DNA of 64,000 nucleotides from Pseudomonadota bacterium (GTDB lineage Bacteria; Pseudomonadota; Alphaproteobacteria; Acetobacterales; Acetobacteraceae). Every line of letters begins with the position of its first letter. The stretch's first letter is position 1. Below are positions 33,018 through 50,326 of the stretch, one piece after another. The notes below the pieces were generated by a model. That model searched no databases. It had not been told where the DNA came from and worked only from the letters and a program-made list of their open reading frames with translations. A program made the position numbers and the translations under genes. The stretch lies in assembly GCA_021809435.1 (NCBI GenBank), contig JAKBAD010000003.1, forward strand, positions 1-64,000. Reading direction: 5' to 3'.

Positions 33018-34148
33018 ATGAGCGCGATCCAGATCGTACCGGTCACCGACAAGAAGATGCTGGGGCGCTTCATTCGGCTTCCAGAACGGCTTCACGCCGA
33101 CGACCCGGCCTATATCGCGCCGCTGCATATGGAGCGCGAGGAAGCGCTCAGCCCCAAGAACCCGTTTTTTGGCCATGCCGAGGTGCAGTTCTGGCTGGCG
33201 GTGCGGGGCGGGCGCGATGTTGGGCGGATTTCGGCGCAGATCGACGCCAATAACGAGCAGCTCAAGGCCCGCCATGCCGGGCAGTTTGGCATGCTGGCGG
33301 CCGAGGATGACCGCGAGGTGATCAGCGCCCTGGTCGATACCGCCGCGCACTGGCTGAAGGCGCGCGGGATGGTGGCGATGCAGGGGCCGTTCAACCTCAA
33401 TATCAATGAGGAAACCGGCCTGCTGATCGACGGGTTTACCACCCCGCCGGTGCTGCTCATGCCCCACGACAAGGCATATTTGCGCGGCCATCTCGAGGCG
33501 TTGGGCTTCGAGAAGGCCAAGGATGTGATTGCCTATTGGTATGATATGCGGGTCGAGCTGCCCAAATCGGTGCGCCGGCTGCTCGAGCGGCCTTTGCCCG
33601 CCAACATCTCGGTGCGCAAGCTCGATTTCAAGCGCTATAACGAGGAGATCCGCATGGTGACGCGGATTTTCAACGATGCCTGGGCCGGGAACTGGGGGTT
33701 TGTGCCGCTCACCGAGATTGAGACCGAATATCTGGCCAAATCGCTCAAGCCGCTGATCAAGCCTGATTTCACCTCGGTGGTGGAGCGCGATGGCGAGCCG
33801 GTGGGGTTTTTGATCGCGCTGCCCAATTTGAACGAGGCGATCCACGATCTGGGCGGCAAGCTGTTGCCGTTTGGCCTTGTGAAGATGCTCTGGCGGCTGG
33901 AGGTGGCGGGGGTGAAGACCGCGCGCGTGCCGCTGATGGGGGTGAAGCGGGCGGTGGCCAAGGATATGATTGGCGGGTTGCTGCCGTTTCTGATGGTGGA
34001 CATGGTGCGCCAGGCCGGGCTGAAGAAAGGCCTCACGCATATTGAGCTGTCATGGATTCTGGAAGACAATTTGCCGATGCGGCGGATGAATGAGAGCCTG
34101 GGCGCCGACCCTTACAAGACTTACCGGGTATTCGAGCGCAAGATTTAA
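33018..34148 (+). CDS. bcerS: GNAT-like N-acyltransferase, candidate bacterial ceramide synthase
   Basis: The 376-residue protein belongs to the large GNAT-like family that includes the bacterial ceramide synthase of Caulobacter (CCNA_01212), which N-acylates the sphingoid base. Visible are an N-terminal half with PERLHADDPAYIAPLHME and GRISAQIDANN, and a C-terminal GNAT half with VGFLIALPNLNEAI and HIELSWILEDNLPMRRMNE near residue 345. It has no signal peptide. The proximity to spt, acpR, cerR and acsR (within 10 kb) is the main support for ceramide synthase. An unrelated acyltransferase role is possible. GTG at 33015 is an alternative start. Confidence 0.62.
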   Translation: MSAIQIVPVTDKKMLGRFIRLPERLHADDPAYIAPLHMEREEALSPKNPFFGHAEVQFWLAVRGGRDVGRISAQIDANNEQLKARHAGQFGMLAAEDDREVISALVDTAAHWLKARGMVAMQGPFNLNINEETGLLIDGFTTPPVLLMPHDKAYLRGHLEALGFEKAKDVIAYWYDMRVELPKSVRRLLERPLPANISVRKLDFKRYNEEIRMVTRIFNDAWAGNWGFVPLTEIETEYLAKSLKPLIKPDFTSVVERDGEPVGFLIALPNLNEAIHDLGGKLLPFGLVKMLWRLEVAGVKTARVPLMGVKRAVAKDMIGGLLPFLMVDMVRQAGLKKGLTHIELSWILEDNLPMRRMNESLGADPYKTYRVFERKI

Positions 34149-34154
34149 AAACTC

Positions 34155-34259
34155 AAAAGTTTTTGGGGGTTTGGCCCCTTTTTTCAAAAAGGGGCCAAGA
34201 AACACCAGGGAAGACGTGGACCCTTTTTGTAAAAAGGGTCCACACCCCCAAAAACTTTT
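34155..34259. repeat. Nested palindrome, bidirectional terminator-like element (copy 1)
   Basis: Outer arms AAAAGTTTTTGGGGGT (34155-34170) and ACCCCCAAAAACTTTT (34244-34259) are perfectly complementary. Inside are two perfect 13-bp hairpins with two-base loops: 34171-34198 and 34216-34243. Each has A/T tracts flanking a GC stem, so either strand can terminate. It lies between the convergent bcerS and CDP-alcohol phosphotransferase genes and includes the latter's stop codon. A related copy is at 52194-52336. Confidence 0.85.
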
Positions 34260-35109
34260 AAAATTTGAAGCTTTCGTAGAGGGCGCGCTGGCGGGTGAGG
34301 TACCAGGCCAGGGCGGCGCTCAGGCCCAGCAGCTCGAGCGCGAAATAGAGCAGCGGCCAGCCAGTGATGGCGCACAGAAAAATCAGCCCCGTGCGGGTGT
34401 TGGAGGAAAACAGCGACCATTGGCGCACGATGGGCGCGAATGTGGCGCGAAAGCGGGCGCGCAGCGTGTCGGGGTCCGGGCTGGTGGCGAGGGCCGCGGT
34501 GAAGCTAGGCGCGAAGCTGGCGACGCCGCCCGACACCAGGATTTGCACGCGCTCATAAAGCCGGTAGAGCCCGCCGGCGAGGCCGGGTTTGGCGGCAATG
34601 CCGAGATCGGGCAGGGCCGCCGAGCGGCGGCCGAGGCCGAGCGCGTTATAGGCTTGGCGCTGCATCTCGAACGCCGCCGATTGCAGAGCGTGCGCCACGC
34701 CCGCGAGGATGATGAGCCCGAGCACCCAATGCCCCGCGCGCGGCATGAGCAGCACCGCGAAGCCGAGATAGACGGCGGTGAAGGTGACATAGTCGCACAC
34801 GCCATCGATGAGTTTGCCAAGCTCTGAGAAGCTGTTGGTGAGGCGGGCGAGCTGGCCGTCGGCGCCGTCGAGCACATGCCAGGCGAACATGAGGGCGAAG
34901 CCCAGCGCCGCGAAGGCCGGATGGTCGGCGCGCGCATAGGAAGCGCCCGCCAGCACGCCGCAGGCCAGCCCCGCCAGCGAGACCTGATTGGGCGTGATGC
35001 CCAGCCGCGCGAAAACCGGCACCAGGGCACCCGAGAGCGGGTGCACCAGGTACAGATTGCTCCAGCTCTCGATTTCCTCGGTGCGTTTGACCGGTTCTGG
35101 GCTGGTCAC
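34258..35109 (-). CDS. CDP-alcohol phosphatidyltransferase-family enzyme (candidate CDP-inositol phosphotransferase)
   Basis: This 283-residue membrane enzyme has the signature D-x2-DG-x2-AR-x8-G-x3-D-x3-D: LDGADGQLAR, then G and DGVCD (about residues 83-107). Several hydrophobic helices follow. Family members transfer a phospho-alcohol from a CDP carrier to an acceptor. It overlaps the nucleotidyltransferase gene by 4 bp, and inositol-phosphate synthase is next. The layout resembles the IPCT/DIPPS pair that makes di-myo-inositol phosphate in hyperthermophiles via CDP-inositol. In this lipid island I infer that the acceptor is a ceramide or other lipid; a CDP-diacylglycerol-dependent reaction is the alternative. 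Confidence 0.82.
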   Translation of the reverse strand: MTSPEPVKRTEEIESWSNLYLVHPLSGALVPVFARLGITPNQVSLAGLACGVLAGASYARADHPAFAALGFALMFAWHVLDGADGQLARLTNSFSELGKLIDGVCDYVTFTAVYLGFAVLLMPRAGHWVLGLIILAGVAHALQSAAFEMQRQAYNALGLGRRSAALPDLGIAAKPGLAGGLYRLYERVQILVSGGVASFAPSFTAALATSPDPDTLRARFRATFAPIVRQWSLFSSNTRTGLIFLCAITGWPLLYFALELLGLSAALAWYLTRQRALYESFKF

Positions 35110-35822
35110 AGCTTGCCGGTGGCCAGCAACTGCTCGGCTTTGCCGAAGGCGAGGGGGTCATCGACATCGAGCCATAAACGCGAACCGATATCGAACACGC
35201 GCGCCTTGTCCCATTCGGCCAGCACGGTCATGCCACCCGAGATGCTGTCATCCCCGCGCGCCTGGGATTCGGCCAGGGCCTCGAACATCACGGGGGAGCA
35301 GCGGAACACGCCGGTATCGAAGCCGTTGAAATCGCGGATGACCTTGCCGATGGCGCGCAGATGGTTGCCTTCGAACTTGACGCGCGTCACGTCCTCGGGG
35401 TCGTTCAGCGGGCGGTCGATCTGGCGGTCGATGGCGAGGGTCACGGTGCCCGGCTCAACCGGCGCGGCGAGGAGGTCGGAGATCAGGTCCGGCTCGACCA
35501 GATGGTCGCACATGGTGAGCAGGAATTCACCCTCGATGAACTGGCGCGCCGCCGAGACGGAGACGCCATTGGCCCGCTGCCAGGCCGGATTATAAGCCGG
35601 GATGATGGTGACAGCGTGCTTCTGGCCGATCTCGCGCAGGCGGGGCGTCAGCGCTTCGGCCCGGTAGCCGGTGACGACCACGATCTCCTCGAGCCCGGCC
35701 TGGGCCAGGGTGGCGATGACACGCTCGATCAGCGGCACGCCGCGAATGGGGATGAGCGGCTTTTGCTCACCTTTTTCGCGCAGGCGCGTGCCCTGGCCGG
35801 CGGCGACGATCAGCCCCTTCAT
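35106..35822 (-). CDS. Nucleotidyltransferase, candidate CTP:inositol-1-phosphate cytidylyltransferase
   Basis: A 238-residue sugar-phosphate nucleotidyltransferase. The nucleotide-binding start is LIVAAGQGTRLREKGEQKPL (residues 4-23); later motifs are WQRANGVSVSAA, FLLTMCDHLVEP and FDTGVFRCS. The NGxS, MxDH and DTGxF motifs are shared with archaeal IPCT enzymes. Its position between a CDP-alcohol phosphotransferase (4-bp overlap) and myo-inositol-phosphate synthase (6-bp gap) supports CDP-inositol formation. Nucleotide and sugar specificity cannot be read with certainty from sequence. Confidence 0.8.
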   Translation of the reverse strand: MKGLIVAAGQGTRLREKGEQKPLIPIRGVPLIERVIATLAQAGLEEIVVVTGYRAEALTPRLREIGQKHAVTIIPAYNPAWQRANGVSVSAARQFIEGEFLLTMCDHLVEPDLISDLLAAPVEPGTVTLAIDRQIDRPLNDPEDVTRVKFEGNHLRAIGKVIRDFNGFDTGVFRCSPVMFEALAESQARGDDSISGGMTVLAEWDKARVFDIGSRLWLDVDDPLAFGKAEQLLATGKL

Positions 35823-35828
35823 GGCGGC

Positions 35829-36962
35829 TTACTCGGCCGCCACGACCTTGGCGGCCGGCTTGGTCTTGATGAAATCCTCGGTCATCTCATAGGCGACATC
35901 GTCGGTGAACTGCGCGGGCGGGTGCTTGCAGAAAAAGGCCGAGGGGCCGGTGAGCACGCCGCCGATGCCGGCATCGAGCGCGATTTTGCAGCAGCGGACC
36001 ATGTCGATCACCACGCCGGCGGAATTCGGGCTGTCTTGCACCGAGAGGCGCAGCTCGAGGTCGAGCGGGACATCGCCGAACATATGGCCTTCCATGCGGA
36101 TGAAGCAGACCTTGTTGTCGTTCTGCCAGGGCACGTAATCGCTGGGGCCGATATGGATGTTCTCGGCCTCCAGGCGCTTCTTGGTGACCGACTGCACGGC
36201 CTCGGTCTTCGACTTCTTCTTGGAGACCAGGCGCTCCTGGTTCTTCATGTTCAGGAAGTCGGTGTTGCCGCCGGTGTTGAGCTGGTAGGTGCGCAGCAGC
36301 TTGATGCCGCGCTTGGCGAACAGGTCGGTCAGGACGCGGTGGGTGATGGTGGCGCCGACCTGGGATTTGATGTCATCGCCGATGATGGGCACGTTGCGGT
36401 CGGCGAATTTTTTGGCGTAGGCCGGGTCGGAGGCGATGAACACCGGCATGTTGTTGACGAAGCCGATGCCGGCCTCGAGCGCGCAATCGGCGTAGAACCG
36501 CGCGGCGGCCTCGGAGCCGACGGGCATGTAGTTGAGCAGCACATCGACCTTGCGGTCCTTGAGGATGGCGACGATCTCGTCCTGGCTCAGCTCGGGCGCG
36601 GTCGAGCGGAGGAAGGTGCGGTCATCCTCGTAATTTGCCATATGGGGGGAAATGCCGTCGAGCACCTGACCCATTTGCACGATGACGCCGCTCTCGGGGA
36701 TGTTGGGCTCGAACACCACGCAGCAATTGGGCTTGGCGAAAATGGCGGTGGCGACATCCTGGCCAACCTTGCGGGCATCGACATCGAACGCCGCCACCAC
36801 CTTGATGTCACACGGGCGGAAGCCGCCGATTTCGGTGTGCATGAGGCCGACCACGCCGGTTTCGCAGCGCTCGGGCGTGTAATAATGCAGCCCCTGGATG
36901 AGCGCGCTGGCGCAATTCCCGAGACCGGCGATCGCGATGCGGATGCCGTCTTTCTTAGCCAT
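35829..36962 (-). CDS. ino1: myo-Inositol-1-phosphate synthase (short bacterial/archaeal type)
   Basis: This 377-residue NAD enzyme cyclises glucose-6-phosphate to inositol-1-phosphate. Seen are the Rossmann start IAIAGLGNCASALIQGLHYY (about 9-28), LNYMPVGSEAAARFYADCAL, FVNNMPVFIASD and the active-site stretch GDDIKSQVGATITHRVL with its lysine (about 205-221). The ATG at 36962 is chosen because GAGG precedes it and the NAD-binding motif then starts normally. As first gene of a tight three-gene unit it supplies the inositol phosphate for the next two enzymes. Confidence 0.92.
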   Translation of the reverse strand: MAKKDGIRIAIAGLGNCASALIQGLHYYTPERCETGVVGLMHTEIGGFRPCDIKVVAAFDVDARKVGQDVATAIFAKPNCCVVFEPNIPESGVIVQMGQVLDGISPHMANYEDDRTFLRSTAPELSQDEIVAILKDRKVDVLLNYMPVGSEAAARFYADCALEAGIGFVNNMPVFIASDPAYAKKFADRNVPIIGDDIKSQVGATITHRVLTDLFAKRGIKLLRTYQLNTGGNTDFLNMKNQERLVSKKKSKTEAVQSVTKKRLEAENIHIGPSDYVPWQNDNKVCFIRMEGHMFGDVPLDLELRLSVQDSPNSAGVVIDMVRCCKIALDAGIGGVLTGPSAFFCKHPPAQFTDDVAYEMTEDFIKTKPAAKVVAAE

Positions 36963-37262
36963 GATCAACCTCGTTCCAATCAACGTCTGAGCGCCATGGC
37001 GCGCGGACGCCACGGTTTGGACCAGGGGCGGCCGCGCGCGGGAGCGCGGCCGGCTGGCCCTGACGCAATGTTAAGCTTCAGCCGTAACTACCCGTTCGGG
37101 GCGTGTGTCGCAAGTGTGACGCGAGCAGCGGGCGGCTGGGCGGGGCGCGCGGCCGTGACATGGTGTGAAAGACTTGTTTACCGCCCGCTTTTGCCGTGGC
37201 GCATTGCGTTCGGGGCGTCAGTCTGTTAGCCCGGACAATCGTGACACGATACGCGCCCCAGA
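36963..37262. promoter_or_regulatory. Divergent promoter region between ino1 and acsR
   Basis: These 300 bases separate the leftward inositol operon from the rightward acsR-cerR pair and must hold both promoters. An 11-base direct repeat GTTCGGGGCGT is at 37094-37104 and 37208-37218, one near each side of the region; it could be a shared regulator site. No clear -35/-10 pair was identified. No reading frame is credible here. Confidence 0.4.
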
Positions 37263-39014
37263 ATGACTGAGCTTCAAGCTGTTTTCCGTGCAGAGCCCCC
37301 ATTGCGGAGGGCCGATTTCGGTACCATCGCCGAGGCGCTGGATTATGCCGCCCGCACCTCGCGGGGGATGAATTTTTACTCCGGCAAGGGGGTGCTGATC
37401 GAGGCGCTGCCCTACGTCACCCTGCGCGCGCAGGCGCAGGCGCTGGCCCGCAAGCTGCTGGGCGCCGGGCTGAAGCCGGGCGAGACGGTGGGGCTGGTGG
37501 CCGAAAGCGATGGCGATTTCGCCCGCGCCTTCTATGCCTGCCAATATGCCGGGCTGATTCCCGCGCCGCTGCCGCTGCCCGCGGCCTTTGGCGGCCGCGA
37601 GGGCTATATTGCCCATTTGCGCCGCATGCTGGAGCGCGCCCATGCCAGGGCGCTGTTTGGGCCCGAGGTGCTGGCCGGGTGGATGAGCGAGATCGAGGGG
37701 CTGGAGGGGCTGAAATTCTGCGGCCCCTATGCGCTGCTGCAAGACGCCCCCGAGGCCGAGACCCTGCCCGCCCAGGACCCGCACGCGCTGGCTTATCTGC
37801 AATTCTCCTCGGGCTCGACGCGGTTTCCCCACGGCGTGGCGGTGACCCAGGCGGCTTTCATGGCCAATGCCCGCCACATGGCCGCCTATGGGCTGAAAGT
37901 GACCGAGGCCGACCATGCCGTGACCTGGCTGCCCTTTTACCACGATATGGGGCTGGTGGGGTTTTTCCTCATGCCCATGAGCTGCCAGGTGGGGGTGGAG
38001 GTGCTGGCCACCCGCGATTTCGCCCGCCGGCCGCTGCTGTGGCTGGAGCTGATCGGGCGCACGGGGGCGACCATCTCGTTCAGCCCGTCTTTTGGCTATG
38101 AATTATGCGTGCGCCGGGCGGAGACGGCCTCGACCGAGGGGCTCGACCTCTCGCGTTGGCGCGCGGCGGGCATTGGCGGCGATATGGTGCGCCCCGGCGT
38201 GCTCACCCGCTTCGCCGCCCGCTTCGCGGGCAATGGCTTCGCCCACACCGCCTTTGTGCCCAGCTATGGCATGGCCGAGGCGACGCTGGCGCTCTCCTTC
38301 ACGCCGCTGGGCGTGGGCGCGGTGACCGATGTGATCGACGGCGCCGTGCTCGAGGCCGAGCACCGCGCCCTGCCCGCCACGGCCGCCACCCAGCGCGTGC
38401 GCGCCTTTGTGCGCTGCGGGCGGATGCTGCCCAACCATGAGGCCGAGATACGCGACGAGGCCGGGGCGCTGGCGCCCGAGCGCGTGGTGGGGCGGATTTA
38501 TGTGCGCGGCCCCAGCCTGATGGAAGGCTATTTCGACAGCCCCGCGGAGACCGAGGCCGTGCTGAGCGCGGATGGGTGGCTGGACACTGGCGATCTGGGC
38601 TATTGGGTGGGCGATGAGCTGGTGATCACCGGGCGGGCGAAAGACCTGATTCTGGTCAATGGCCGCAATGTCTGGCCGCAGGACCTGGAATGGACGGCGG
38701 AGGCCGAATTTGGGCCGCTGCGCAGCGGCGATGTGGCGGTGGTTTCGGTGGATCAGGGCGAGGCCGAGGAGGTGGTGGTGCTGGTGCAGTGCCGCGTGCT
38801 CGAGCGCGAGGCGCGCGAGGCGCTGCGGGGCGAGATCGGCAAGTTCTTCCGCGGCCGCTTTGGGCTGGAGACCCGCGTGGTGCTGGTGCCGCCGCGCAGC
38901 CTGCCCCAGACCTCGAGCGGCAAGCTCTCGCGCTCGAAGGCCAAGGCCATGTATCTGGCCGGCGCGTTTGGCGCCGAGGCCAAGGCGCTGGAGCCGACCC
39001 CGGACGCGGCATGA
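37263..39014 (+). CDS. acsR: Fatty acyl-AMP ligase/acyl-ACP synthetase of the ceramide cluster
   Basis: This 583-residue ANL enzyme activates a fatty acid with ATP. The phosphate loop is LQFSSGSTRFPHGVAVTQ (about 178-195); TWLPFYHDMGLVGFF, PSYGMAEATLAL, WLDTGDLGYW and the C-terminal lysine in QTSSGKLSR follow. These forms are typical of fatty acyl-AMP ligases, which load acyl groups on carrier proteins. In Caulobacter the homologous gene (AcsR) supports ceramide synthesis with AcpR, and an acpR candidate is 3.3 kb downstream. It overlaps cerR by 4 bp. Confidence 0.8.
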   Translation: MTELQAVFRAEPPLRRADFGTIAEALDYAARTSRGMNFYSGKGVLIEALPYVTLRAQAQALARKLLGAGLKPGETVGLVAESDGDFARAFYACQYAGLIPAPLPLPAAFGGREGYIAHLRRMLERAHARALFGPEVLAGWMSEIEGLEGLKFCGPYALLQDAPEAETLPAQDPHALAYLQFSSGSTRFPHGVAVTQAAFMANARHMAAYGLKVTEADHAVTWLPFYHDMGLVGFFLMPMSCQVGVEVLATRDFARRPLLWLELIGRTGATISFSPSFGYELCVRRAETASTEGLDLSRWRAAGIGGDMVRPGVLTRFAARFAGNGFAHTAFVPSYGMAEATLALSFTPLGVGAVTDVIDGAVLEAEHRALPATAATQRVRAFVRCGRMLPNHEAEIRDEAGALAPERVVGRIYVRGPSLMEGYFDSPAETEAVLSADGWLDTGDLGYWVGDELVITGRAKDLILVNGRNVWPQDLEWTAEAEFGPLRSGDVAVVSVDQGEAEEVVVLVQCRVLEREAREALRGEIGKFFRGRFGLETRVVLVPPRSLPQTSSGKLSRSKAKAMYLAGAFGAEAKALEPTPDAA

Positions 39015-39931
39015 CAGCCCCGCGCGCCGCGCTGACCGGCGCGAGCGGGTTTTTGGGCGGGCATGTGCTGGCGGCCTTGCGCGGGCGGGGCGTTGCGGTG
39101 CGCGCGCTGGTGCGGCGCGCGGCGGCGCTGGAGGCCGAGCTGGTGCGCGGCACGCTCGCGGATGAGGCGGCGCTGGCCCGGCTGGTGGCGGGGGCCGATG
39201 TGGTTGTGCATGTGGCGGGCGCGGTGAAGGCGCGCGGGCGGGCGGAGTTTTTCGCCGTGAACGCCCATGCCGCCGGGCGGCTGGCCCGCGTGACCCGCGA
39301 GCTGGCGCCAAAGGCGCGGTTTGTGCTCATTTCATCGCTGGCGGCGCGCGAGCCGGGGCTTTCGGATTATGCCGCCAGCAAGCGCGCGGGCGAGGAGGCG
39401 GTGCGCGCCGTGTATGGCGAGGAGGCGCTGATTTTGCGCCCGCCCGCGCTCTACGGCCCGTATGACCGTGAAACCCTGGCGCTGTTCAAGGTCGCGCGCC
39501 TGAGGCTGGTGCCGCTGACCGGGCGCGGGCGGGCGGCGATGATGTATGGCGCGGATGCCGGGGAGGCCGTGGCGGCGGCGGCGCTGGGCGAGCGGGCGGG
39601 GTGTTTCGCGCTCGCCGATGAGCGGCCCGAGGGCTATGAAATGGCCGAGATTTTGCGCGCGGCGGCGGCGGCGCAGGGGCGCGCGCCGTGGGCGCTGCTG
39701 CCGGTGCCGGGCTTGGTGTTGCGCGGGCTTGGGGGGCTGAACGGGGCGTTGGGCGCGCTGAGCGGCCGGGCGGTGATGTTCACGGCTGGCAAGGCGCGCG
39801 AGCTGGCGCACCCGGATTGGGCCGTGGGGCCGGATGAGCTGCTGCCCCGCGAGGTGTATGCGCCCCGCACCAGCCTGGGGGAGGGGTTTGCGGAGAGCGT
39901 TTCGTGGTACCGGGCGCAAGGCTGGCTGTAG
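39011..39931 (+). CDS. cerR: NAD(P)-dependent epimerase-type ceramide reductase
   Basis: This 306-residue extended short-chain dehydrogenase has the Rossmann motif TGASGFLG (9-16), catalytic Tyr120/Lys124 (YAASK) and a serine pair at 108-109. Its Caulobacter counterpart CerR reduces the 3-keto group of the sphingoid lipid. Start ATG lies in the ATGA overlap with acsR. Only the tight link to acsR and nearby spt separates this from generic NAD-dependent epimerases, so the specific role is an inference with good context. Confidence 0.8.
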   Translation: MTAPRAALTGASGFLGGHVLAALRGRGVAVRALVRRAAALEAELVRGTLADEAALARLVAGADVVVHVAGAVKARGRAEFFAVNAHAAGRLARVTRELAPKARFVLISSLAAREPGLSDYAASKRAGEEAVRAVYGEEALILRPPALYGPYDRETLALFKVARLRLVPLTGRGRAAMMYGADAGEAVAAAALGERAGCFALADERPEGYEMAEILRAAAAAQGRAPWALLPVPGLVLRGLGGLNGALGALSGRAVMFTAGKARELAHPDWAVGPDELLPREVYAPRTSLGEGFAESVSWYRAQGWL

Positions 39932-39952: not shown

Positions 39953-41047
39953 CTATGTCGCCCGCCGGCGGGTGAGGTGGTTTTGCTGCTGACTGAGCAG
40001 GCTGAGCGCGATGATCAGCAGCAGGGTGCTGGGCAGCAGGGCGGTGAGCGGGGCGGGCAGGGCCAGGCGCTCGCCGGTTTGGGTGATGAGCTGCTGGCAT
40101 AGCTCGAAGGCCAGCCCGATGAGCGCGCCGATGAACAAGGGCCGCCCGGCATTGGTTTGGCGTGGCGCGCCAAAGCCGAAGGGGGCGGCGATGAGCACCA
40201 TGGCCAGCGCGCTGAGCGGCAGGCTGAGCAGCGCCCACAGGCTTTGCTCGTAGCGCGAGACCTCGGCGCCTTGCTGGTGGCCGGCATGGATGAAGCGGAT
40301 GAGCGAGAGCGGCGAGAGCGCGGCGGGGGGCAGGGAGAGCAGGCGCATCTGGCGGGTGGTTAAAAAGGGTGTCCAGCTTTGGGTGGGGTGATCGGCGGTG
40401 GTGATGATGCCCGAGGGGGTGATGTCGGTTTCCTGCACCTGCACCAGAGTCCAGGTGCCATCGGGGGCGATGGTGGCGCGCTTGGCATGCAGGGCGGTGG
40501 TGAGCTGGCCGTCGGGGGTGAAGGCGTAAATATCGATCTGCTGGGGGGTGTTGTCGTAATTGAAGCGGCGGACGTTGAGATATTGCCCCTCATGCTCGGC
40601 CCAGAAGCCACCATTGGCCAGCACCGGGGCGCCGGGGCCAAGCGCCTGGGCCTGATGGGTTTGGGCGATGAACTGCGCCGCCGGCACCACGAATTGCGCC
40701 AGCCCCAGAATCACCAGGGTGAGCGGCAGCACCAGCCGGGCCTGGGCGCCGATGAGCCGGGCGGGCGGGTGGCCGAGCGCCTGGAAGGCTTGCAGCTCGG
40801 ACCAGCGGGCGAGGCTGCCCAGTGCCAGAAGGCAGGCCAGCAGCAGCGCCACGGGGCTGAGCGTGACAAAGCGCCCCGGCGCGGTGAGCAGGGTGTTGAG
40901 CAGGGCATCGGTGACATGATAGCCGCCGCTGCCCACCAGCGAGAGCTGGGAGACGAAGCCGAACAGGCTGACCAGCCCCGTGATGCCGGCCGAGACCAAC
41001 ATAAACAGCCGGGCGGTGAGGCCGCCGAGATAGCGCTCGAGCGTCAT
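39953..41047 (-). CDS. LptG-like permease of the LptF/LptG family
   Basis: A 364-residue inner-membrane protein with an N-terminal cytoplasmic start (MTLERYLGGLTARLF), three helices, a periplasmic beta domain (about 150-270, including GGFWAEHEGQYLNVRRF) and three C-terminal helices. This is the YjgP/YjgQ architecture of the LPS exporter permeases. The ATG overlaps the stop of the partner gene (ATGA). It ends 21 bp from convergent cerR. Canonical lptF/lptG usually lie near other envelope genes; here they are embedded among ceramide genes, so a sphingolipid-dedicated role is plausible. No LptB ATPase gene is present. Confidence 0.8.
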   Translation of the reverse strand: MTLERYLGGLTARLFMLVSAGITGLVSLFGFVSQLSLVGSGGYHVTDALLNTLLTAPGRFVTLSPVALLLACLLALGSLARWSELQAFQALGHPPARLIGAQARLVLPLTLVILGLAQFVVPAAQFIAQTHQAQALGPGAPVLANGGFWAEHEGQYLNVRRFNYDNTPQQIDIYAFTPDGQLTTALHAKRATIAPDGTWTLVQVQETDITPSGIITTADHPTQSWTPFLTTRQMRLLSLPPAALSPLSLIRFIHAGHQQGAEVSRYEQSLWALLSLPLSALAMVLIAAPFGFGAPRQTNAGRPLFIGALIGLAFELCQQLITQTGERLALPAPLTALLPSTLLLIIALSLLSQQQNHLTRRRAT

Positions 41048-42123
41048 GCGCGGCGCGACAGGGGGAGGCTGGGCCAGAGCGAGAGCCCGAGCGTGACCAG
41101 CGCCAGCGTCAGCGGCGCCACCCACAGGCCGGGAAAGGCCGGCAGATGGCCATATTGCACCCAGGTGCGCGCCGCGCTGCAGAACAGATAATAGCCGATA
41201 TAGAGCAGCACGGCGGGCAGGAAGCGGGTGAGGCGGTTTTGGCGCGGGCGGGCGCGCGAGAGCGGCACGGCGAGCAGGGCCAGCAAAATGGTCGAGAGGG
41301 GGGTGGAAAGCCGCCATTGCAGCTCGGCGATGTCGGCGGAGTCACCGCTATGCAGCAAACGCCCGAGGCTGGCGACCACCGGGCTGTAGCCGGGGGAGCC
41401 GATGGCTTCCTCGTTGACGTTCAGCTCCAGCCCCTGGGAGGCGACGATTTGGTTTTTGAGGGGGGATTGGGGGTAGAGGTCGTAGATATGGGCGTTTTGC
41501 AGATAGACGCGGTCGGTGGTGCGGGCGTTGCCGTCGTGCAGGGGGGCGGCGAGCTGGGCGAAGACCAGCTCGGCATGGTCGGAAAGCTGGCGGCGCACGA
41601 ATACGTCCTGCGCGGGGCCGCCATGGCCCTCGCGGTGGGTGATGAAAATGACCTGAGCGCCATCGGCGCTGGTGTAGAAAATGCCCGCGCGCAGGGCATC
41701 GACATCGAGGGAGAAGGCCGCTTGCCAGCTCAGGATGTGGGATTCGCGGTAGGCCCAGGGGCGGACGAAGGCCGATAACAGCCCAACCCCCAGCGCCACC
41801 GTGAGCGCGAAGCCCAGCACGGCGCGCGCCAGCTCGGCCGGGGAAATGCCAAGTGCCGCCATGGCGATGGTTTCGGATGCGCCGGCCAGCCGGGCGAGGG
41901 CCAGCAGCACCGAGAGATAGAGCGCGATGGGGATGAGCACATCGAGCGCGATGAGCAGCTTGAGGGCCGAGAGCGCCAGCAGGGTGAGCGGGGGCATCAG
42001 GCCGGCGGCGGAATCGGCCAGCTCCTCGGCCATGCCGTAGAAGGCGAACAGCACGCCGAGCAGCCCCAGAATCGCCGCCAGGGGTTTTGCAATCTCGGAG
42101 GTGAGGTAGCGCGTGATGACCAA
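41044..42123 (-). CDS. LptF-like permease of the LptF/LptG family
   Basis: This 359-residue protein begins VITRYLTSEIAKPLAAILGL, as LptF proteins do, followed by a periplasmic jellyroll region and paired C-terminal helices (LPAVLLYIGYYLFC). The start is not certain: no ATG or GTG fits, and a TTG at 42123 gives the standard N-terminus. It faces acpR across a 159-bp divergent gap and is coupled to the LptG-like gene. LptF/LptG form the membrane part of an ABC transporter that extracts lipids from the inner membrane. Confidence 0.77.
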   Translation of the reverse strand: MVITRYLTSEIAKPLAAILGLLGVLFAFYGMAEELADSAAGLMPPLTLLALSALKLLIALDVLIPIALYLSVLLALARLAGASETIAMAALGISPAELARAVLGFALTVALGVGLLSAFVRPWAYRESHILSWQAAFSLDVDALRAGIFYTSADGAQVIFITHREGHGGPAQDVFVRRQLSDHAELVFAQLAAPLHDGNARTTDRVYLQNAHIYDLYPQSPLKNQIVASQGLELNVNEEAIGSPGYSPVVASLGRLLHSGDSADIAELQWRLSTPLSTILLALLAVPLSRARPRQNRLTRFLPAVLLYIGYYLFCSAARTWVQYGHLPAFPGLWVAPLTLALVTLGLSLWPSLPLSRRA

Positions 42124-42282: not shown

Positions 42283-42534
42283 ATGAGCGATAATGACGCC
42301 GAGCTGAAGACCGTGATTTTCGAGACCCTGCGCGCCGCCCTGACCAAACCGGCGGAGCTGAGCGAGGCGACCCATATCGTCGATGATCTGGGGTTGGATT
42401 CGGTGGCGGTGATGGATTTTGTCATGGAGATCGAGGACCGGCTCGACCTGTCGGTGCCGCTCGACAAGATCGCCGAGATTCAGACGCTGGGGGATTTGCT
42501 GACCGTGCTGCGCGGGCTCAAGGCCGGCGCTTAA
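42283..42534 (+). CDS. acpR: Acyl carrier protein of the ceramide cluster
   Basis: The 83-residue acidic protein has the phosphopantetheine attachment motif DDLGLDSVAVMDF with Ser40. It should carry the acyl chain for the adjacent palmitoyltransferase, which starts 4 bp after its stop. In Caulobacter a dedicated carrier (AcpR) lies beside spt in the same way. The ATG at 42283 was chosen over an upstream in-frame ATG because family members begin a few residues before the first helix. Confidence 0.86.
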   Translation: MSDNDAELKTVIFETLRAALTKPAELSEATHIVDDLGLDSVAVMDFVMEIEDRLDLSVPLDKIAEIQTLGDLLTVLRGLKAGA

Positions 42535-42538: not shown

Positions 42539-43753
42539 ATGGCGCTGCTGGATAAATATGCCGCGCTGGGCGCGCAATACGCGCAGGTTGAGGCGCAGGG
42601 CGCGAACCCGTTCAATGTCACGTTCGAGGCGATGATCTCGGCCACCGAGGGGCGCTATCGCGGCAAGCCGGTGCTGCTGCTGGGGACCAATAATTATCTT
42701 GGCCTGACCTATGACCCCGAGGTGGTGGAGGCCGCGCTGGCCGCCACCCGCGCCGAGGGCACGGGCACCACGGGATCGCGCATCGCCAATGGCTCTTATG
42801 GCGGGCATAAGGGGCTGGAGACCGAGCTGGCGGCGTTTTATGGCCGCAAGCATGGCATGGTGTTCACCACCGGCTATCAGGCCAATCTGGGCATGCTCTC
42901 GGTGCTGGCGGGCAAGGATGACCATCTGATTCTGGATGCGGATTCGCATGCCTCGATTTATGACGGGGCCAAGCTGGGCACTGCCCAGGTGACGCGCTTT
43001 CGCCATAACAGCCCCGAGGATCTGGATGCGCGGCTGCGCCGGCTGGATGGCACGCCGGGCGAGAAGGTGATTGTCGTCGAGGGGATTTACTCGATGCTGG
43101 GCGACACCGCGCCGCTGAAGGAATTCGCCGAGGTGAAGCGCAAATGGGGCGCTTATCTGGTGGTGGATGAGGCGCACTCGCTGGGGGTGCTGGGCGCCAC
43201 CGGGCGCGGGCTGGCCGAGGCCGCCGGGGTGGAGGGCGATGTCGATTTCATCGTCGGCACCTTCTCGAAGAGCCTGGCCGGGGTTGGGGGGTTTTGCGTC
43301 AGCGATATCGAGGGGTTCGATGTGCTGCGGGTGGCGACGCGGCCTTATATGTTCACCGCCTCGCTGCCGCCCGGCGTGATTGCCGCGACGCGCGCCGCCC
43401 TGGCCGCGCTGCGCGCCCGCCCCGAACTGCGCGCGCGGCTGAACGAGAATGCCGTGCGGCTTTATAACGGGCTGGCCCGGCTGGGCTTTGCCCTGGGGCC
43501 CGAGCCCAACCCGGTGGTTTCGGCCATTATGCCAAGCCCCGAGGTGGCGTTTGCCTTCTGGGCCAGGCTGCTCGAGGCCGGGCTTTATACCAATGTCAGC
43601 CTGCCGCCGGCCACGCCCAAGGGGCTGGCGCTGCTGCGCTCGAGCGTGAGCGCGGCGCATGGCGCGGCGCAGATTGACCAGGCGATTGGCATGTTCGAGG
43701 CGGTGGGCCGGGAGATGGGGATTATCGGCGCGGATGCGCCCATTGCCGGGTGA
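42539..43753 (+). CDS. spt: Serine palmitoyltransferase (PLP, alpha-oxoamine synthase family)
   Basis: This 404-residue enzyme condenses serine with an acyl thioester to 3-ketosphinganine, the first step of sphingolipid synthesis. Motifs are LLGTNNYLGLTYDPEV (48-63), GTGTTGSRIANGSYGGHKGLE, DEAHSLGVLGATGRG and the PLP lysine in GTFSKSLAGVGGF near residue 244. Soluble, without membrane segments, as in bacterial SPTs. The preceding carrier-protein gene supports acyl-ACP as the donor. KBL and AONS are related enzymes, but operon context decides for SPT. Confidence 0.87.
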   Translation: MALLDKYAALGAQYAQVEAQGANPFNVTFEAMISATEGRYRGKPVLLLGTNNYLGLTYDPEVVEAALAATRAEGTGTTGSRIANGSYGGHKGLETELAAFYGRKHGMVFTTGYQANLGMLSVLAGKDDHLILDADSHASIYDGAKLGTAQVTRFRHNSPEDLDARLRRLDGTPGEKVIVVEGIYSMLGDTAPLKEFAEVKRKWGAYLVVDEAHSLGVLGATGRGLAEAAGVEGDVDFIVGTFSKSLAGVGGFCVSDIEGFDVLRVATRPYMFTASLPPGVIAATRAALAALRARPELRARLNENAVRLYNGLARLGFALGPEPNPVVSAIMPSPEVAFAFWARLLEAGLYTNVSLPPATPKGLALLRSSVSAAHGAAQIDQAIGMFEAVGREMGIIGADAPIAG

Positions 43754-43757: not shown

Positions 43758-44882
43758 ATGAGCGCGCCGGTCGCGCTGATTCTGCGCCATAATCTGTTCC
43801 GGCGCTCGGAGCCGTTCATTACCCAGCAGGCCGGGGCGTTTGCGCGCTACCGGCCGCTTTATTTGGGCCGGTTGCGCTATGGCCCGGCGCCGGGTGAGGC
43901 CTTGGCGCTCGAGGATCTGGCGCCGCGCTTTAAATATGGGCTGGCGGCGTGGCAGATGCTGAGCCGCGATGTTGGGCCCTATATGCGCTTGCTGGCCGGG
44001 CGGCGGGTGGCGGTGGTGCACGCGCATTTTGGCATTGAGGGCGCTTATGCGCTGCCCCTGGCCGCGCGGCTGAACGCGCCGCTGGTAACCACGTTTCATG
44101 GGTTTGACGCCACGCTGGGCACGGCCGGGCTGCTCTCCTCGCCCGCCTGGGCGGCTTATCCGTTTTTGCGCGGGCGGCTGGCGCGGCGGGGCGATTTGTT
44201 TTTGTGCGTGTCGGATTTCATCCGGGGCAAGCTGCTGGCGCAGGGGTTTCCGGCGGAGAAGACCCGCGTGCATTATATCGGCGTGGATACCGCGCGCCTG
44301 ACGCCCCGCGCGGCGGGCGGGGATGAGGGGTTTGTGCTGCATGTGGCCCGGCTGGTGGAGGTCAAGGGCACGGAATATCTGCTCCGCGCCGTAGCCAAAA
44401 TGGCGCGCCCGCCCCGGCTGGTGATGATTGGCGAGGGGCCGCTGCGCGCGCGGCTGGCGGCGCTGGCGGGAGAGCTGGGGGTGCGGGCCGAGTTTCTGGG
44501 CGCCATGGCGCATGAGGAGGTGCTGGGCTGGATGCGCCGCGCCGGAGTGCTGGTGCTGCCTTCGGTGCGCACGAGATCGGGGCGCGAGGAGGGCCTGGGC
44601 ATGGTGACGCTGGAGGCGGCGGCGCTGGGCGTGCCGGTGATTGGCGCCGATGTTGGCGGGATTGGCGAGGCGGTGGCGGACGGGGTGAGCGGGTTTTTGG
44701 TGCCCTCCCGTGACCCCGAGGCCCTGGCCGCGCGGCTGGAGCTGGTGCTGGGCGATGCGGCGCTGCGCGCGCGGCTGGGCGCGGGCGGGCGGGCGCGGGT
44801 GGTGGCGGGGTTCGACCTTGCTCGCCAGAGCGCGGCGCTGGAGGCGATGTATGACGAGTTGCGGGCCGCCCGTGCGCGCTGA
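43758..44882 (+). CDS. GT4-family glycosyltransferase downstream of spt
   Basis: A 374-residue GT-B enzyme: N-terminal acceptor domain with HAHFGIEGAYALPLAARL and TTFHGFDAT, C-terminal nucleotide-sugar domain with VLHVARLVEVKGTEYLLRA and REEGLGMVTLEAAALGVPVIG, the E-x7-E retaining motif of family GT4. The ATG at 43758 follows spt by 4 bp with GAGG before it. The next gene, overlapping by 11 bp, is a PIG-L deacetylase, the combination found in MshA/MshB of mycothiol synthesis and in GPI-anchor formation. I infer GlcNAc transfer to inositol, free or lipid-linked; sugar identity is not visible. Confidence 0.82.
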   Translation: MSAPVALILRHNLFRRSEPFITQQAGAFARYRPLYLGRLRYGPAPGEALALEDLAPRFKYGLAAWQMLSRDVGPYMRLLAGRRVAVVHAHFGIEGAYALPLAARLNAPLVTTFHGFDATLGTAGLLSSPAWAAYPFLRGRLARRGDLFLCVSDFIRGKLLAQGFPAEKTRVHYIGVDTARLTPRAAGGDEGFVLHVARLVEVKGTEYLLRAVAKMARPPRLVMIGEGPLRARLAALAGELGVRAEFLGAMAHEEVLGWMRRAGVLVLPSVRTRSGREEGLGMVTLEAAALGVPVIGADVGGIGEAVADGVSGFLVPSRDPEALAARLELVLGDAALRARLGAGGRARVVAGFDLARQSAALEAMYDELRAARAR

Positions 44883-45609
44883 GACCACCGCCCTGGTGGT
44901 GGCCCACCCCGATGATGAGGCGCTGTGGTTCTCGGGCGTGCTGGGCGCGGCCGGGCGGGTGGTGATTTGTTTTGGCGACCAGCTGGGGGGCGGGGCTAAA
45001 AACGCCCGGCGCGCGCGCGCGGTGGCGGCGCTGCCGCTGCCGGGGCTGGTGAATTTGGCCATTCCCGAGAGCGGTGTGCGGTTGAGCGTGGCGTGGGGCC
45101 GCGCCCGTGAGACGGCGTTTGGCGTGGAGATTGCCGATGAGGCCGGGCGGGCGCGCTATGAGGCGAATTTTGCCCGGCTGAAGGCGGCGCTGCGGCCATG
45201 GCTCGTGGGCATGACGGATGTGGTGAGCCATAATCCGTGGGGGGAATATGGCCACCCGGAGCATGTGCAGCTTTACCGGGCGGTGAGCGATTTGCGGGCC
45301 GAGCTGGGGTTCGCGCAGTGGTGCACGGGCTATGGCGCGCCGCTGAGCCAAGGGTTTGGCGCGCGCGCGGCGGCGCGCTGGGTGGCGCGGCGGGTGGTGC
45401 CCACCAATGCCCGCCTCGCCCGCCGGCTGGAGCTGATATATTTGCGCCACCGCGTGTGGACCTGGCCCGTGCTGCACCGCTGGCCGGGGCGCGAGACGCT
45501 CTATGAGCTGGGCGAAACCGGCCAGGGGTTTGGCGGGGAGGCGCTGTGGGACTGCACGAGGCTGCGGCTGTGGCGGTGGGGACGCCGACATATGGTGATG
45601 GGCGTGTGA
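44872..45609 (+). CDS. PIG-L family N-acetylglucosamine de-N-acetylase
   Basis: This 245-residue zinc enzyme has the motif VVAHPDDEALW (residues 9-19) and the second ligand set HNPWGEYGHPEH (about 119-130), both hallmarks of PIG-L/MshB/LmbE deacetylases. They remove acetyl from GlcNAc linked to inositol or other groups. The start is GTG 44872, overlapping the GT4 stop, which indicates coupling. There is no signal peptide, so it acts in the cytoplasm or on the inner leaflet. It should act on the product of the neighbouring glycosyltransferase. Confidence 0.84.
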   Translation: MRAETTALVVAHPDDEALWFSGVLGAAGRVVICFGDQLGGGAKNARRARAVAALPLPGLVNLAIPESGVRLSVAWGRARETAFGVEIADEAGRARYEANFARLKAALRPWLVGMTDVVSHNPWGEYGHPEHVQLYRAVSDLRAELGFAQWCTGYGAPLSQGFGARAAARWVARRVVPTNARLARRLELIYLRHRVWTWPVLHRWPGRETLYELGETGQGFGGEALWDCTRLRLWRWGRRHMVMGV

Positions 45610-45631
45610 TCAGCCTTCCAGAGCCGGATGC

Positions 45632-45666: not shown

Positions 45667-45671
45667 TCATC

Positions 45672-46913
45672 TCACTCTAGGGCGCCGGGCGGCAGGATGA
45701 CCGAGCGTGTGGTGAGCAGGTGCTTGAGCCAGCGGCGCGATTGTTTGCCAAAGCGGCGCCATTTGGCGCCATCCCACGGCTCTGGCGCGGGGGCGGGCGC
45801 GGCGCGCCAGGCTTCGATGGCGGCGGCGATTTTGGCCGCCCGCCCTTCCCAGGTGAAGCCCTTGGCGTGGCGCGCGGCGCCGGCCGAGAGATGGGCGGCG
45901 TAGGGGGCGTCGGTGGTCAGGCGTTTGAGGCCGGCGACCAGTTCGGGCAGGGAGTCGGGGGGGACGAGATGGGCGGTTTCGCCAGAGGTCAGGATTTCGG
46001 CGATGTCGGGCGTCTGGCCGGCCAGGATGGGGCGGGTGGAGCCCAGATAGAAGAACAGCTTGAGCGGCAGCACGGTGGAGCCGAACTTGGCCAGCGGCGC
46101 GGCGGAAGGCGGGATGAGCAGGACATCGGCCGCGAAAATATAGGCGGGCAGGGTGGCGTCGGTCTGCCAGGGGATGATTCGGACATTGGGCAGGTCAGCG
46201 GCCTGGCGCTCGATGGGGCCGTTGGGGTCTTCGGAGCCGACCAGCAGGAAGGTCAGCTCGGGGCAAAGGCGCGCGGCTTGGAGCACCAGCTCGAGGCCTT
46301 TTTTGTGGTTGACGCGGCCTGTGTAGACCACCGTTTTGGCCGCGGGGTCGAGGCCGATATGGGCCTTGGCCTCGGCCGGCCCGAGGGGGGCGTGGAAGCG
46401 CCCGGGCTCGAAGCCGTTATGGACGCAGGTGAGTTTTTCGGGCGGGACGCCGAGCTCGATATATTTTTGCCGGGTATAGGCTGAGTGGCAGATGGCGCCG
46501 ATGAAGCGCTGATGGCCAAACAGGGTGAAGAGATAATGCTGGAGGGGGGGGATCTGGTCGGGCCAGGGGCGGTAATGGTCGAACACCACGCGCTGGCCGA
46601 ACAGGATGGCCAGGCCCGAGACCCAGAGATTGCGGGTGTAGATGAAATCGGCCTGTTTGAAGGCTTGGCGCAGCGGCAGGGTGAGGCCGCAGCAAAAATG
46701 GCGCAGCGCGGGCGGTGAGAGCGGCGCCCAGGCGCGGATGACCGGCACCCCCAGCGAGCGCCACAGCGCGCCCAGGCTGGTGCCCCGCGCCAGCGGCGTG
46801 TGCAGCCAGGACTCGGTGGCGTGGCGGGCGAGATAGCGCGCGGTGGTGGCGAACACTTCGGCGTCGGCCTGGGAATTGGGCAGCGGATTTTCGAAGGCAA
46901 ACAGGATTTTCAT
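45672..46913 (-). CDS. Second GT4-family glycosyltransferase
   Basis: This 413-residue protein has a GT-B fold: an N-terminal part with KILFAFENPLPNSQADAEVF, and the C-terminal domain with VVYTGRVNHKKGLELVLQAA and LIPPSAAPLAKFGSTVLPLK. The last conserved glutamate segment of typical GT4 enzymes is altered here (FGSTVLPLKLFFYLGSTRPI), as in several polysaccharide and lipid glycosyltransferases. The ATG at 46913 lacks a strong ribosome-binding site but yields a normal N-terminus. Convergent with the PIG-L gene; it may extend the lipid glycan. Confidence 0.8.
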   Translation of the reverse strand: MKILFAFENPLPNSQADAEVFATTARYLARHATESWLHTPLARGTSLGALWRSLGVPVIRAWAPLSPPALRHFCCGLTLPLRQAFKQADFIYTRNLWVSGLAILFGQRVVFDHYRPWPDQIPPLQHYLFTLFGHQRFIGAICHSAYTRQKYIELGVPPEKLTCVHNGFEPGRFHAPLGPAEAKAHIGLDPAAKTVVYTGRVNHKKGLELVLQAARLCPELTFLLVGSEDPNGPIERQAADLPNVRIIPWQTDATLPAYIFAADVLLIPPSAAPLAKFGSTVLPLKLFFYLGSTRPILAGQTPDIAEILTSGETAHLVPPDSLPELVAGLKRLTTDAPYAAHLSAGAARHAKGFTWEGRAAKIAAAIEAWRAAPAPAPEPWDGAKWRRFGKQSRRWLKHLLTTRSVILPPGALE

Positions 46914-49394: not shown

Positions 49395-49402
49395 GGCGGG
49401 GA

Positions 49403-50326
49403 TCAGCGCCGGGCCAGGAGGTCGAGATAATCGCCGTCGGTTGGTTGGGCGGTGGCGAGGAAGGCGCGCAGGCGGGGCAGGGCATCGTTGGGGGATAAAA
49501 AGACCGGCTTGCCCGGCTTGCCGCCCGGGCTGACGGCGATGGCCGAGAACCCCGCGAGCTGGGCCAGCATGGCGTCGATGTCGCCGCCGAGCTGGCGCAT
49601 GAGGAAGGGGCAGAACTCGGCCGCCAGCAGCCCGGCGCGGGCGATGGCTTGGCGCCCGCCCGCGAAGATGAAGGGCTCGGCGCCTTGGGTGTCGATTTTG
49701 AGGGCGAGCGGGGCGGTGAGCGCGGGCAGGAATTCATCGAGCGGGCGGGCCTGGACGGTGATGGTCTCGCGCCCGGGGAGGGCTGTTCGGGTGATGCGAT
49801 GATCGCCGATATTGGCGGGGGCCTTGGCCAGGGTGAGGGTGGCGGGCTGATCGAACAGGGCCAGCTGGTGCGGGCGGACGCGGTTGGCGGGCAGGTTGCG
49901 GGCGAGGTTGCGTTCAAGCAGGGCGAAATTCACCGGGTCGGGCTCGAAGGCGAGGCACTGGGCCGGGGTGGATTGGGCCACCGGCAGGGTGGTGAGGCCG
50001 ATATTGGCGCCGATATCGACGTAAGTGCCGCCTTGGGCCAGGAAGGCGGAGATTTCATCGGTCAGGTCGGGGGCGAAGCTGCCGGAATCGAGATATTGCT
50101 TGAAGATGGTGCTGTCGGTGGCGAGCGAGGTGATGGCGCCGAGATCGCCTTGGGCGGTGAGCTCGGTGATGTTGAGGCGGGGCGCGAGGCGGCGGATGAG
50201 GCGCTGCATGATTTCGGGATCGTCGAGCGAGGCGCAGGCGGTTTCGAACAGCCGGGTTTTGAGCCGCCAGGGCAGCAGGGCGAGGGCGCGGCGGATGAGG
50301 CGCTCGGGGAGGTTGTGATTTGCCAT
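49403..50326 (-). CDS. FkbM-family methyltransferase
   Basis: The 307-residue protein has the S-adenosylmethionine-binding motif TYVDIGANIGLTTLP (about 120-134), CLAFEPDPVNFALLERNL and LKIDTQGAEPF, all typical of FkbM O-methyltransferases. These often modify sugars or glycolipids. The ATG at 50326 is chosen over upstream codons because homologous sequence starts after it. It is convergent with the kinase/phospho-lyase gene, only 8 bp away, at the right end of the lipid island, so methylation of the head group is a reasonable guess. Confidence 0.8.
   Translation of the reverse strand: MANHNLPERLIRRALALLPWRLKTRLFETACASLDDPEIMQRLIRRLAPRLNITELTAQGDLGAITSLATDSTIFKQYLDSGSFAPDLTDEISAFLAQGGTYVDIGANIGLTTLPVAQSTPAQCLAFEPDPVNFALLERNLARNLPANRVRPHQLALFDQPATLTLAKAPANIGDHRITRTALPGRETITVQARPLDEFLPALTAPLALKIDTQGAEPFIFAGGRQAIARAGLLAAEFCPFLMRQLGGDIDAMLAQLAGFSAIAVSPGGKPGKPVFLSPNDALPRLRAFLATAQPTDGDYLDLLARR

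Follow-up and report, generated by a model that had tools for sequence, protein, structure and literature searches.

The bacterial systems closest to the locus described here are those of Caulobacter crescentus and of Bacteroidetes. A phosphosphingolipid cluster of C. crescentus (CC_1152-CC_1168), with LptF2/G2 and relatives, has been described (PMC11324152). Inositol phosphodihydroceramide has been shown in Bacteroidetes, for which a variant that uses CDP-inositol and includes a HAD protein is also predicted (PMC9246714); the clusters reported are BT_1522-1526 and an alternative comprising a myo-inositol-phosphate synthase (MIPS), an NTP transferase, a CDP-alcohol phosphotransferase and a HAD protein (PMC9246714, PMC8791184). 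The CDP-inositol route has been reviewed (PMC10191378). Here we present a conserved island of 13 genes, at positions 33018-46913 of a 64,000-nucleotide stretch (the window) which forms the start of contig JAKBAD010000003.1 in the 2.65 Mb genome of an Acetobacteraceae bacterium (GCA_021809435.1). In this island genes of ceramide synthesis lie among those of a CDP-inositol route, together with two glycosyltransferases (GT4a and GT4b), a PIG-L-type deacetylase and a second pair of LptF/LptG-family permeases. Judged from the sequences, the 13 genes are likely to make a glycosylated inositol-phosphoceramide.

Compared by description, the island shares with Caulobacter the genes aasR, cerR, acpR, spt and cerS and a second LptF/LptG pair, all in one region; a CDP-alcohol phosphotransferase-domain protein and nucleotidyltransferases are also present there, and transport to the outer membrane has been proposed (PMC11324152). 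The Caulobacter system differs in having a ceramide kinase, CpgB, and in its product, ceramide phosphoglycerate (PMC10331486), whereas the window has MIPS and a CTP:inositol-1-phosphate cytidylyltransferase-like gene (IPCT), two conserved GT4 genes and PIG-L. The main text of PMC11324152 contains no word beginning with "inositol". No Pfam match to a ceramide kinase (diacylglycerol-kinase family) was observed among the proteins encoded at 33-51 kb, the rest of the genome not having been searched. On a plasmid of Roseomonas mucosa (L168, 20001-40717; annotated as Acetobacteraceae), ceramide genes stand together with genes for LptF/G permeases, a sterol-desaturase-family protein, a diacylglycerol-kinase-family protein, a metallophosphoesterase and a CDP-alcohol phosphotransferase 34% identical over 121 residues to that of the window. 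By annotation this cluster resembles the kinase-based Caulobacter type as described (PMC11324152, PMC10331486). Two head-group modules, one kinase-based and giving phosphoglycerate and the other based on CDP-inositol, may have been swapped on one set of ceramide genes. This would sharpen the picture of a common core of ceramide and Lpt genes in this group, onto which sphingolipid head groups fit as interchangeable modules.

The alternative cluster of Bacteroidetes likewise has MIPS, a nucleotidyltransferase and a CDP-alcohol phosphotransferase together, with inositol phosphodihydroceramide given as the product. It differs in that a diacylglycerol intermediate and transfer by the HAD protein (AUR1-like) are proposed, and in that neither a glycosyltransferase nor PIG-L is named in the sections of the source which deal with it (PMC9246714). 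A Pfam search revealed no HAD hydrolase among the 13 window genes. If the proposed pathway is right, the island would point to a way in which Proteobacteria that lack the Bacteroides genes could produce inositol sphingolipids.

Glycosyl-inositol-phosphoceramides (GIPCs) are treated as lipids of plants and fungi, and eukaryotes take the phosphoinositol from phosphatidylinositol via AUR1/IPCS. The proposed bacterial product would be like eukaryotic GIPCs and glycosylphosphatidylinositol (GPI) anchors, as these are generally understood, in carrying sugars on inositol phosphoceramide and in the N-deacetylation of a hexosamine on inositol; it would differ in that CDP-inositol is proposed as the donor instead of phosphatidylinositol. 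We assume this likeness to reflect convergence and not descent. If the proposal is correct, the bacterial counterpart would be reached by a shorter, phosphatidylinositol-free route, an instance of convergent chemistry, and cultured organisms (Acidocella, Gluconacetobacter diazotrophicus, Nitrospirillum) would become available for the study of glycosylated inositol sphingolipids.

With respect to novelty, the initial annotation of this DNA had held that no described bacterial pathway has this combination of genes. For the combination as a whole this agrees with searches of open-access full text: none of the matches listed concerned a glycosylated inositol phosphoceramide made by a proteobacterium, and no paper searched there joined inositol, sphingolipid and Acidocella. 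The parts, however, are described, in Bacteroides and Caulobacter (PMC9246714, PMC11324152, as far as these sources deal with them). What look to be new are the combination, its spread, and an association with radical SAM and DXD-glycosyltransferase genes in relatives.

Identity of the island genes

All open reading frames named in the initial annotation were found in place in the window, and its assignment of ceramide, inositol, GT4, PIG-L and LptF/G genes was borne out by Pfam, NCBIfam, PDB and fold comparisons, with cerS placed by synteny. The MIPS gene (35829..37013, minus strand) matched Inos-1-P_synth (PF01658, 1.1e-35) and the NCBIfam model TIGR03450 (1.1e-132, under its cut-off). Beside it on the same strand lies IPCT (35109..35822, minus strand), a nucleotidyltransferase gene with a Pfam match to NTP_transf_3 (1.5e-17). 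Its top two PDB matches were the archaeal CTP:inositol-1-phosphate cytidylyltransferases of Archaeoglobus (2xme, 7e-16; 4mnd, 2.8e-15), followed by an unspecified nucleotidyl transferase (4jd0, 1.3e-13) and then by a match at 4.8e-8. Its best NCBIfam model was the archaeal IPCT-DIPPS fusion, with a score under the full-length cut-off, and by sequence it belongs to the IPCT family. The CDP-alcohol phosphotransferase (34258..35109, minus strand) matched CDP-OH_P_transf (PF01066, 8.6e-13), and the motif DGxDGxxAR...G...D...D was invariant in 28 aligned sequences including that of the window. Its predicted model (pLDDT 94) retrieved members of the same superfamily at Foldseek ranks 1-26, with AF2299 at the top and rank 1 alone at E<=0.001. 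Scored against PIPSynBT1523, the NCBIfam model for the PIP synthase of the Bacteroides PIP route (BT_1522/23/25, which also has a PIP phosphatase), it gave 30 bits (cut-off 350), a comparison made for this one protein of the genome. At the level of genes, MIPS, IPCT and a CDP-alcohol phosphotransferase, the three enzymes of a CDP-inositol route, are thus present together. The archaeal IPCT-DIPPS proteins (2xme, 4mnd) are alike in the IPCT sequence family and in the CDP-alcohol phosphotransferase fold; in the window, in contrast, the two activities would reside in separate proteins, and the phosphotransferase is distant from the archaeal one (phmmer E 0.0016).

The Caulobacter-type ceramide set of spt, acpR, aasR, cerR and cerS is complete, with cerS and cerR assigned by synteny. 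The spt gene (42539..43753, plus strand) matched the serine palmitoyltransferase (SPT) model NF047599 of NCBIfam with 652 bits (cut-off 500), and aasR (37263..39014, plus strand) matched the fatty acyl-AMP ligase model NF006624 with 815 bits (cut-off 600). The product of cerR (39011..39931, plus strand), a predicted NAD(P) reductase, matched Epimerase (PF01370, 5.6e-20), its cerR-type name coming from synteny, and the acyl carrier protein gene acpR (42283..42534, plus strand), which adjoins spt in relatives, matched PP-binding (PF00550, 8.1e-11). Further Pfam matches among the window proteins were to AMP-binding (2.3e-47) and Aminotran_1_2 (9e-49). The gene at 33018..34148 (plus strand) matched no Pfam model, NCBIfam model or PDB chain. 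Homologues 53-96% identical to it adjoin other ceramide or inositol genes in relatives, and a 49% homologue stands at the edge of the Roseomonas ceramide cluster. Because its homologues keep their place beside cluster genes, we name it cerS, a putative N-acyltransferase (bacterial ceramide synthase); the role is modelled on CC_1154 of Caulobacter (PMC11324152), to which the window gene was not aligned.

The two permeases encoded at 39953..41047 (F2-like) and 41044..42126 (G2-like, start codon approximate), both on the minus strand, matched the LptF/LptG family (PF03739) at 2.7e-64 and 1.1e-51 respectively. This family has four matches in the host genome, two of them inside the cluster, so that an extra pair does stand beside the sphingolipid genes. 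GT4a (43758..44882, plus strand; PF00534) had PimB' as its best PDB match, then BshA and MshA among others, and GT4b (45672..46913, minus strand; PF13692) had weak PDB matches which included MshA and PimA.

The PIG-L/LmbE-type gene (44872..45609, plus strand, with its start at 44872 or 44851) had a Pfam match of 1.6e-5 and 25.8 bits, under the curated cut-off of 28.2, and its 15 sequence matches in the PDB up to E 1 were all to unrelated proteins at E 0.23 or worse. The motifs HPDDE and GHxxH, which we take to be the metal-site motifs of PIG-L/MshB N-deacetylases, were invariant in 24 aligned sequences including that of the window. With the predicted model (pLDDT 90), all seven Foldseek matches at E<=0.001 were to MshB or glycopeptide deacetylases, with moderate TM-scores (0.41-0.56). 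The modelled LmbE fold and the motifs support identification as a deacetylase of the PIG-L/MshB type.

Conservation of the gene set among relatives

The distribution of the genes was profiled in 150 genomes of the order, the host genome included, using cut-offs of E<=1e-90 for SPT, 1e-60 for GT4a, 1e-40 for GT4b and 1e-6 for PIG-L. Of 27 genomes with any IPCT match, nine with matches of only 28-38% identity were set aside, which left orthologues (51-100% identity) in 18/150 genomes. SPT was present in 17 of these 18 and in 83 of the 132 others (Fisher one-sided p 0.0046), and GT4a and GT4b were each present in all 18 and in a single other genome, G146 (p 2e-22); PIG-L was found in eight of the 150, of which four belong to the window's genus and three to genus g8, the eighth being G101 (Fisher p 8e-7). 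None of these p values is corrected for relatedness. The initial annotation had placed the GT4 pair in the pathway and had suggested a search for conserved co-occurrence of spt, IPCT and PIG-L; in the 150 genomes the GT4 pair is present wherever IPCT is and spt nearly so, but PIG-L is present in just 7/18 IPCT genomes and in 26/62 of the named loci described below. The SPT match of G086 contains an internal stop codon.

The presence of IPCT and that of both GT4 genes change in step. G116 is the sole IPCT genome among at least 21 sampled genomes of genus g13 and has both GT4 genes; of the eight g7 genomes listed, G027 is the one that lacks IPCT and both GT4 genes. G146 has both GT4 genes, a phosphotransferase of 38% identity and LptF/G-like genes with no IPCT match; since the 5000 bases adjoining its phosphotransferase read N, it says nothing on IPCT. 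Stretches from four of the nine genomes with weak IPCT matches were examined: in G138 and G125 the match adjoins aasR and cerR, spt lies farther along and the arrangement differs, and in G121 and G061 the match had none of the other cluster genes nearby.

Synteny is likewise conserved. The phosphotransferase gene follows IPCT in 18/18 IPCT genomes and MIPS precedes it in 17/18; in the remaining genome, G109, a DXD glycosyltransferase gene precedes IPCT and the contig ends there. Ceramide genes are in the same locus in 7/18 IPCT genomes, four of the window's genus and three of g8. In g8 a segment of about 17 kb holds all 13 genes in changed order and orientation, and this re-clustering argues for selection for staying together.

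To these we added named loci from the genome_contigs collection (84,980 species), which was scanned with two peptide patterns taken from the IPCT alignment. The scan gave 106 stretches, of which 82 encode an IPCT relative, and 80 of the 82 were used; counts of genes at the bit thresholds are lower bounds, many loci being cut by contig ends. In the 62 loci whose IPCT reaches 50% identity or more, MIPS was counted in 56, the phosphotransferase in 57 and LptF-like and LptG-like genes in 48 each; GT4a was counted in 31, GT4b in 30, PIG-L in 26, spt in 28 and any ceramide gene in 35. In all 26 loci having PIG-L it adjoins GT4a. The 18 loci with IPCT below 50% identity had no ceramide gene, and SPT above 40% identity was present in just two of their genomes. 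Operon-like same-strand runs (gaps <300 bases) unite inositol and ceramide genes in four loci, L095 and L118 (both labelled Gammaproteobacteria), L104 (Rhodospirillales) and L139 (Proteobacteria), so that the refuting observation named in the initial annotation, homologous clusters in which the two sets never adjoin, did not come about. The recurrence of the gene set, differently ordered, in other genera and in loci assigned to other classes makes its clustering more than chance. The joining of the inositol genes with the ceramide genes in the initial annotation is upheld by both samples, through SPT in 17/18 genomes and ceramide genes in 35/62 loci, and supports the conclusion that the two form one conserved set.

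Several observations weigh on the other side. SPT is common anyway (100/150 genomes), and for this reason its co-occurrence with IPCT is, taken alone, modest evidence. There is partial overlap between the named loci and the 150-genome sample, and the loci share ancestry. In 27 of the 62 named loci, ten of them from Gluconacetobacter, the count of ceramide genes was zero; 24 of the 27 genomes carry SPT elsewhere (49-75% identity), and in the other three, the metagenome bins L117, L131 and L145, there is neither SPT in the genome nor a ceramide gene in the locus. G058, a 350-contig assembly which is probably the same genome as L117, has IPCT but no SPT. It carries a hydroxylase that otherwise tracks SPT, so its lack of SPT could be an assembly gap. 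The predicted phosphotransferase model is closest to AF2299 and to PIP synthases, which does not fix the acceptor. As a general feature an amino sugar is contradicted by the scarcity of PIG-L among IPCT genomes and by G101, which has a PIG-L relative (43% identity) with no IPCT match; the G101 stretch contained no other cluster gene and only weak partial glycosyltransferase matches. An amino sugar cannot, therefore, be general.

Proposed pathway and competing explanations

In the proposed pathway, the ceramide arm of which takes its roles from the Caulobacter genes, AasR would load a fatty acid onto AcpR, Spt would condense the AcpR-bound acyl group with serine, and N-acylation by CerS and reduction by CerR would give ceramide. 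MIPS would make inositol phosphate, to be converted by IPCT to CDP-inositol, and the phosphotransferase, as a CDP-inositol:ceramide phosphoinositol transferase, would move phosphoinositol from CDP-inositol to a ceramide hydroxyl in one Kennedy-type step, with neither a ceramide kinase nor a phosphatidylinositol intermediate. GT4a, the proposed head-group sugar transferase, and GT4b would then add sugars. With PIG-L beside GT4a, the sugar would probably be an N-acetylhexosamine which is deacetylated to the amine, and the second LptF/G pair would lift the finished lipid towards the outer membrane. We infer all of the substrates, the order of the sugars, ceramide rather than diacylglycerol as the acceptor, and export. 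On gene content it is highly probable that an inositol-phosphate ceramide is made, and we lean towards a free amino sugar in those organisms which carry PIG-L.

The alternative to be taken most seriously is that the product of the inositol module is a glycosylated phosphatidylinositol built on diacylglycerol, like phosphatidylinositol mannosides (PIM) or GPI, and that the ceramide genes are neighbours which share only the Lpt-type exporter with it. Its weight comes from Gluconacetobacter, in which the module and the ceramide genes are apart: MIPS, IPCT, the phosphotransferase, LptF/G-like genes and GT4b form one locus there, with GT4a at a second and SPT at a third, and other organisms also keep the same module away from their ceramide genes. 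A step joining CDP-inositol and diacylglycerol is, moreover, a published proposal for some Bacteroidetes (PMC9246714). Against this, ceramide genes are present for 59 of the 62 named IPCT loci, in the locus itself (35) or at another place in the genome (24), the four loci above mix both sets in same-strand runs, and g8 re-clusters all of the genes differently. On balance we regard a diacylglycerol lipid as improbable.

A lipopolysaccharide (LPS) or exopolysaccharide locus, with GT4, PIG-L and LptF/G genes that chance to lie among lipid genes, would fit the best NCBIfam match of GT4a, an exopolysaccharide transferase (under cut-off), and the presence of a Wzx-type flippase in 26/80 related loci. 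The GT4 orthologues are, however, confined to IPCT genomes but for 1/132, even where GT4a is elsewhere in the genome, and we consider such a locus distinctly unlikely. That MIPS with an MshA-like GT4 and an MshB-like PIG-L makes a mycothiol-like glucosaminyl-inositol thiol is very hard to credit; GT4a and GT4b do have distant MshA matches, the PIG-L model has the MshB fold and MIPS is nearest a mycothiol-type model (under cut-off), but IPCT, the phosphotransferase, the LptF/G pair and the ceramide genes would be left unexplained, and PIG-L is missing from 11/18 IPCT genomes. Equally slight is the likelihood that IPCT and the phosphotransferase serve to form di-myo-inositol phosphate, a stress solute known from hyperthermophiles, among lipid genes which are chance neighbours, for although the closest solved IPCTs are from Archaeoglobus and include the fusion 4mnd, the phosphotransferase is as far from DIPPS as noted above, LptF/G-like, GT4 and ceramide genes recur as neighbours from genus to genus, and the genera named among IPCT loci are mostly not thermophiles. 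Each of these explanations leaves part of the conserved set unexplained.

Partner genes of relatives, flanks and distant loci

In relatives the gene set recurs with partners that are missing from the window. Among the 80 loci, 27 have a DXD glycosyltransferase (PF04488), 26 the Wzx-type flippase already mentioned, 18 a radical SAM protein (PF04055) and 16 a protein of the fatty-acid hydroxylase family. In the 150-genome sample the DXD transferase was present in 15/18 IPCT genomes and one other (G063), and radical SAM, often beside GT4a, in 15/18 and in no other genome. Examples of the radical SAM genes are at 18180-19211 of L112 and 15224-16150 of L137, and of the DXD transferases, which stand near MIPS, GT4a or other cluster genes, at 1070-2035 of L084 and 3932-4879 of L080. 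The DXD transferase of relatives had no PDB match up to E 0.1; the PF04488 type is one which we take to be GT32-like, and fungal inositol-phosphoceramide mannosyltransferases are of the same broad kind (GT32). The hydroxylase was found in 100/150 genomes, and since 98 of these are SPT genomes it tracks SPT and not IPCT; an example is at 2451-3227 of L094. Two SPT genomes, that of the window among them, are without the hydroxylase.

At the thresholds used, the window's genome gave no match to the DXD transferase, radical SAM or hydroxylase, and none to the Wzx-type flippase in a search limited to this genome and run without a positive control. In L080 (IPCT 91% identical) the stretch between aasR and MIPS holds a DXD transferase gene; in the window the corresponding stretch is about 250 bases (37014-37262). 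The window seems to carry a pared-down form of a richer pathway. A wider reading is that Proteobacteria independently evolved a class of glycosyl-inositol-phosphoceramides from CDP-inositol and ceramide, that a dedicated Lpt-type pair carries this second, LPS-like surface lipid to the outer membrane, that GT4, DXD-type (GT32-like) and PIG-L enzymes decorate it in a lineage-specific manner, and that radical SAM makes a sugar or cyclitol change foreign to plant and fungal GIPCs; this we put forward tentatively, as possible and rather less than an even prospect.

The island ends near 46.9 kb, since the genes to its right are not conserved with the cluster. A methyltransferase had been included in the initial annotation, whose interval ran to 50326, but the FkbM gene concerned (49403-50326; 2.9e-10) had no match in the 80 named loci or 19 other stretches and is dropped from the set. 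The gene at 46800-49394, also inside that interval, encodes a fusion of a kinase domain with a class-III aminotransferase (PF01636 and PF00202) and, within the stretches examined, was near the cluster just in the congener G149 (65-67%). A HAD gene at 55526, considered as a missing phosphatase, had no match in the 80 named loci and 19 other stretches, and ABC transporter genes at 56652 and 58475, considered as a missing flippase, gave matches of just 27-38%. The flanks consist of genes of a general nature (EF-G-like, ammonium transporter, thiamine-pyrophosphate (TPP) enzyme, isopentenyl-diphosphate (IPP) transferase), and the left flank is common only to the nearest relative, L080.

Two observations concern more distant loci. 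Seven loci labelled Chloroflexi or Dehalococcoidia (L150-L155 and L159) have an IPCT relative of 34-37% identity, and in six of them, all but L153, a relative of the kinase-aminotransferase (30-32%) lies 4-6 kb off. Novosphingobium acidiphilum is reported to have an inositol-type sphingolipid without a known cluster (PMC9246714). On a plasmid of Sphingomonas parapaucimobilis (L167, 8044-10711) there is a trio consisting of an IPCT-like gene, a phosphotransferase and MIPS, respectively 37%, 35% and 66% identical to those of the window, with no annotated ceramide genes within 8-10 kb. This trio is a candidate source of the unexplained inositol-type sphingolipids of sphingomonads.

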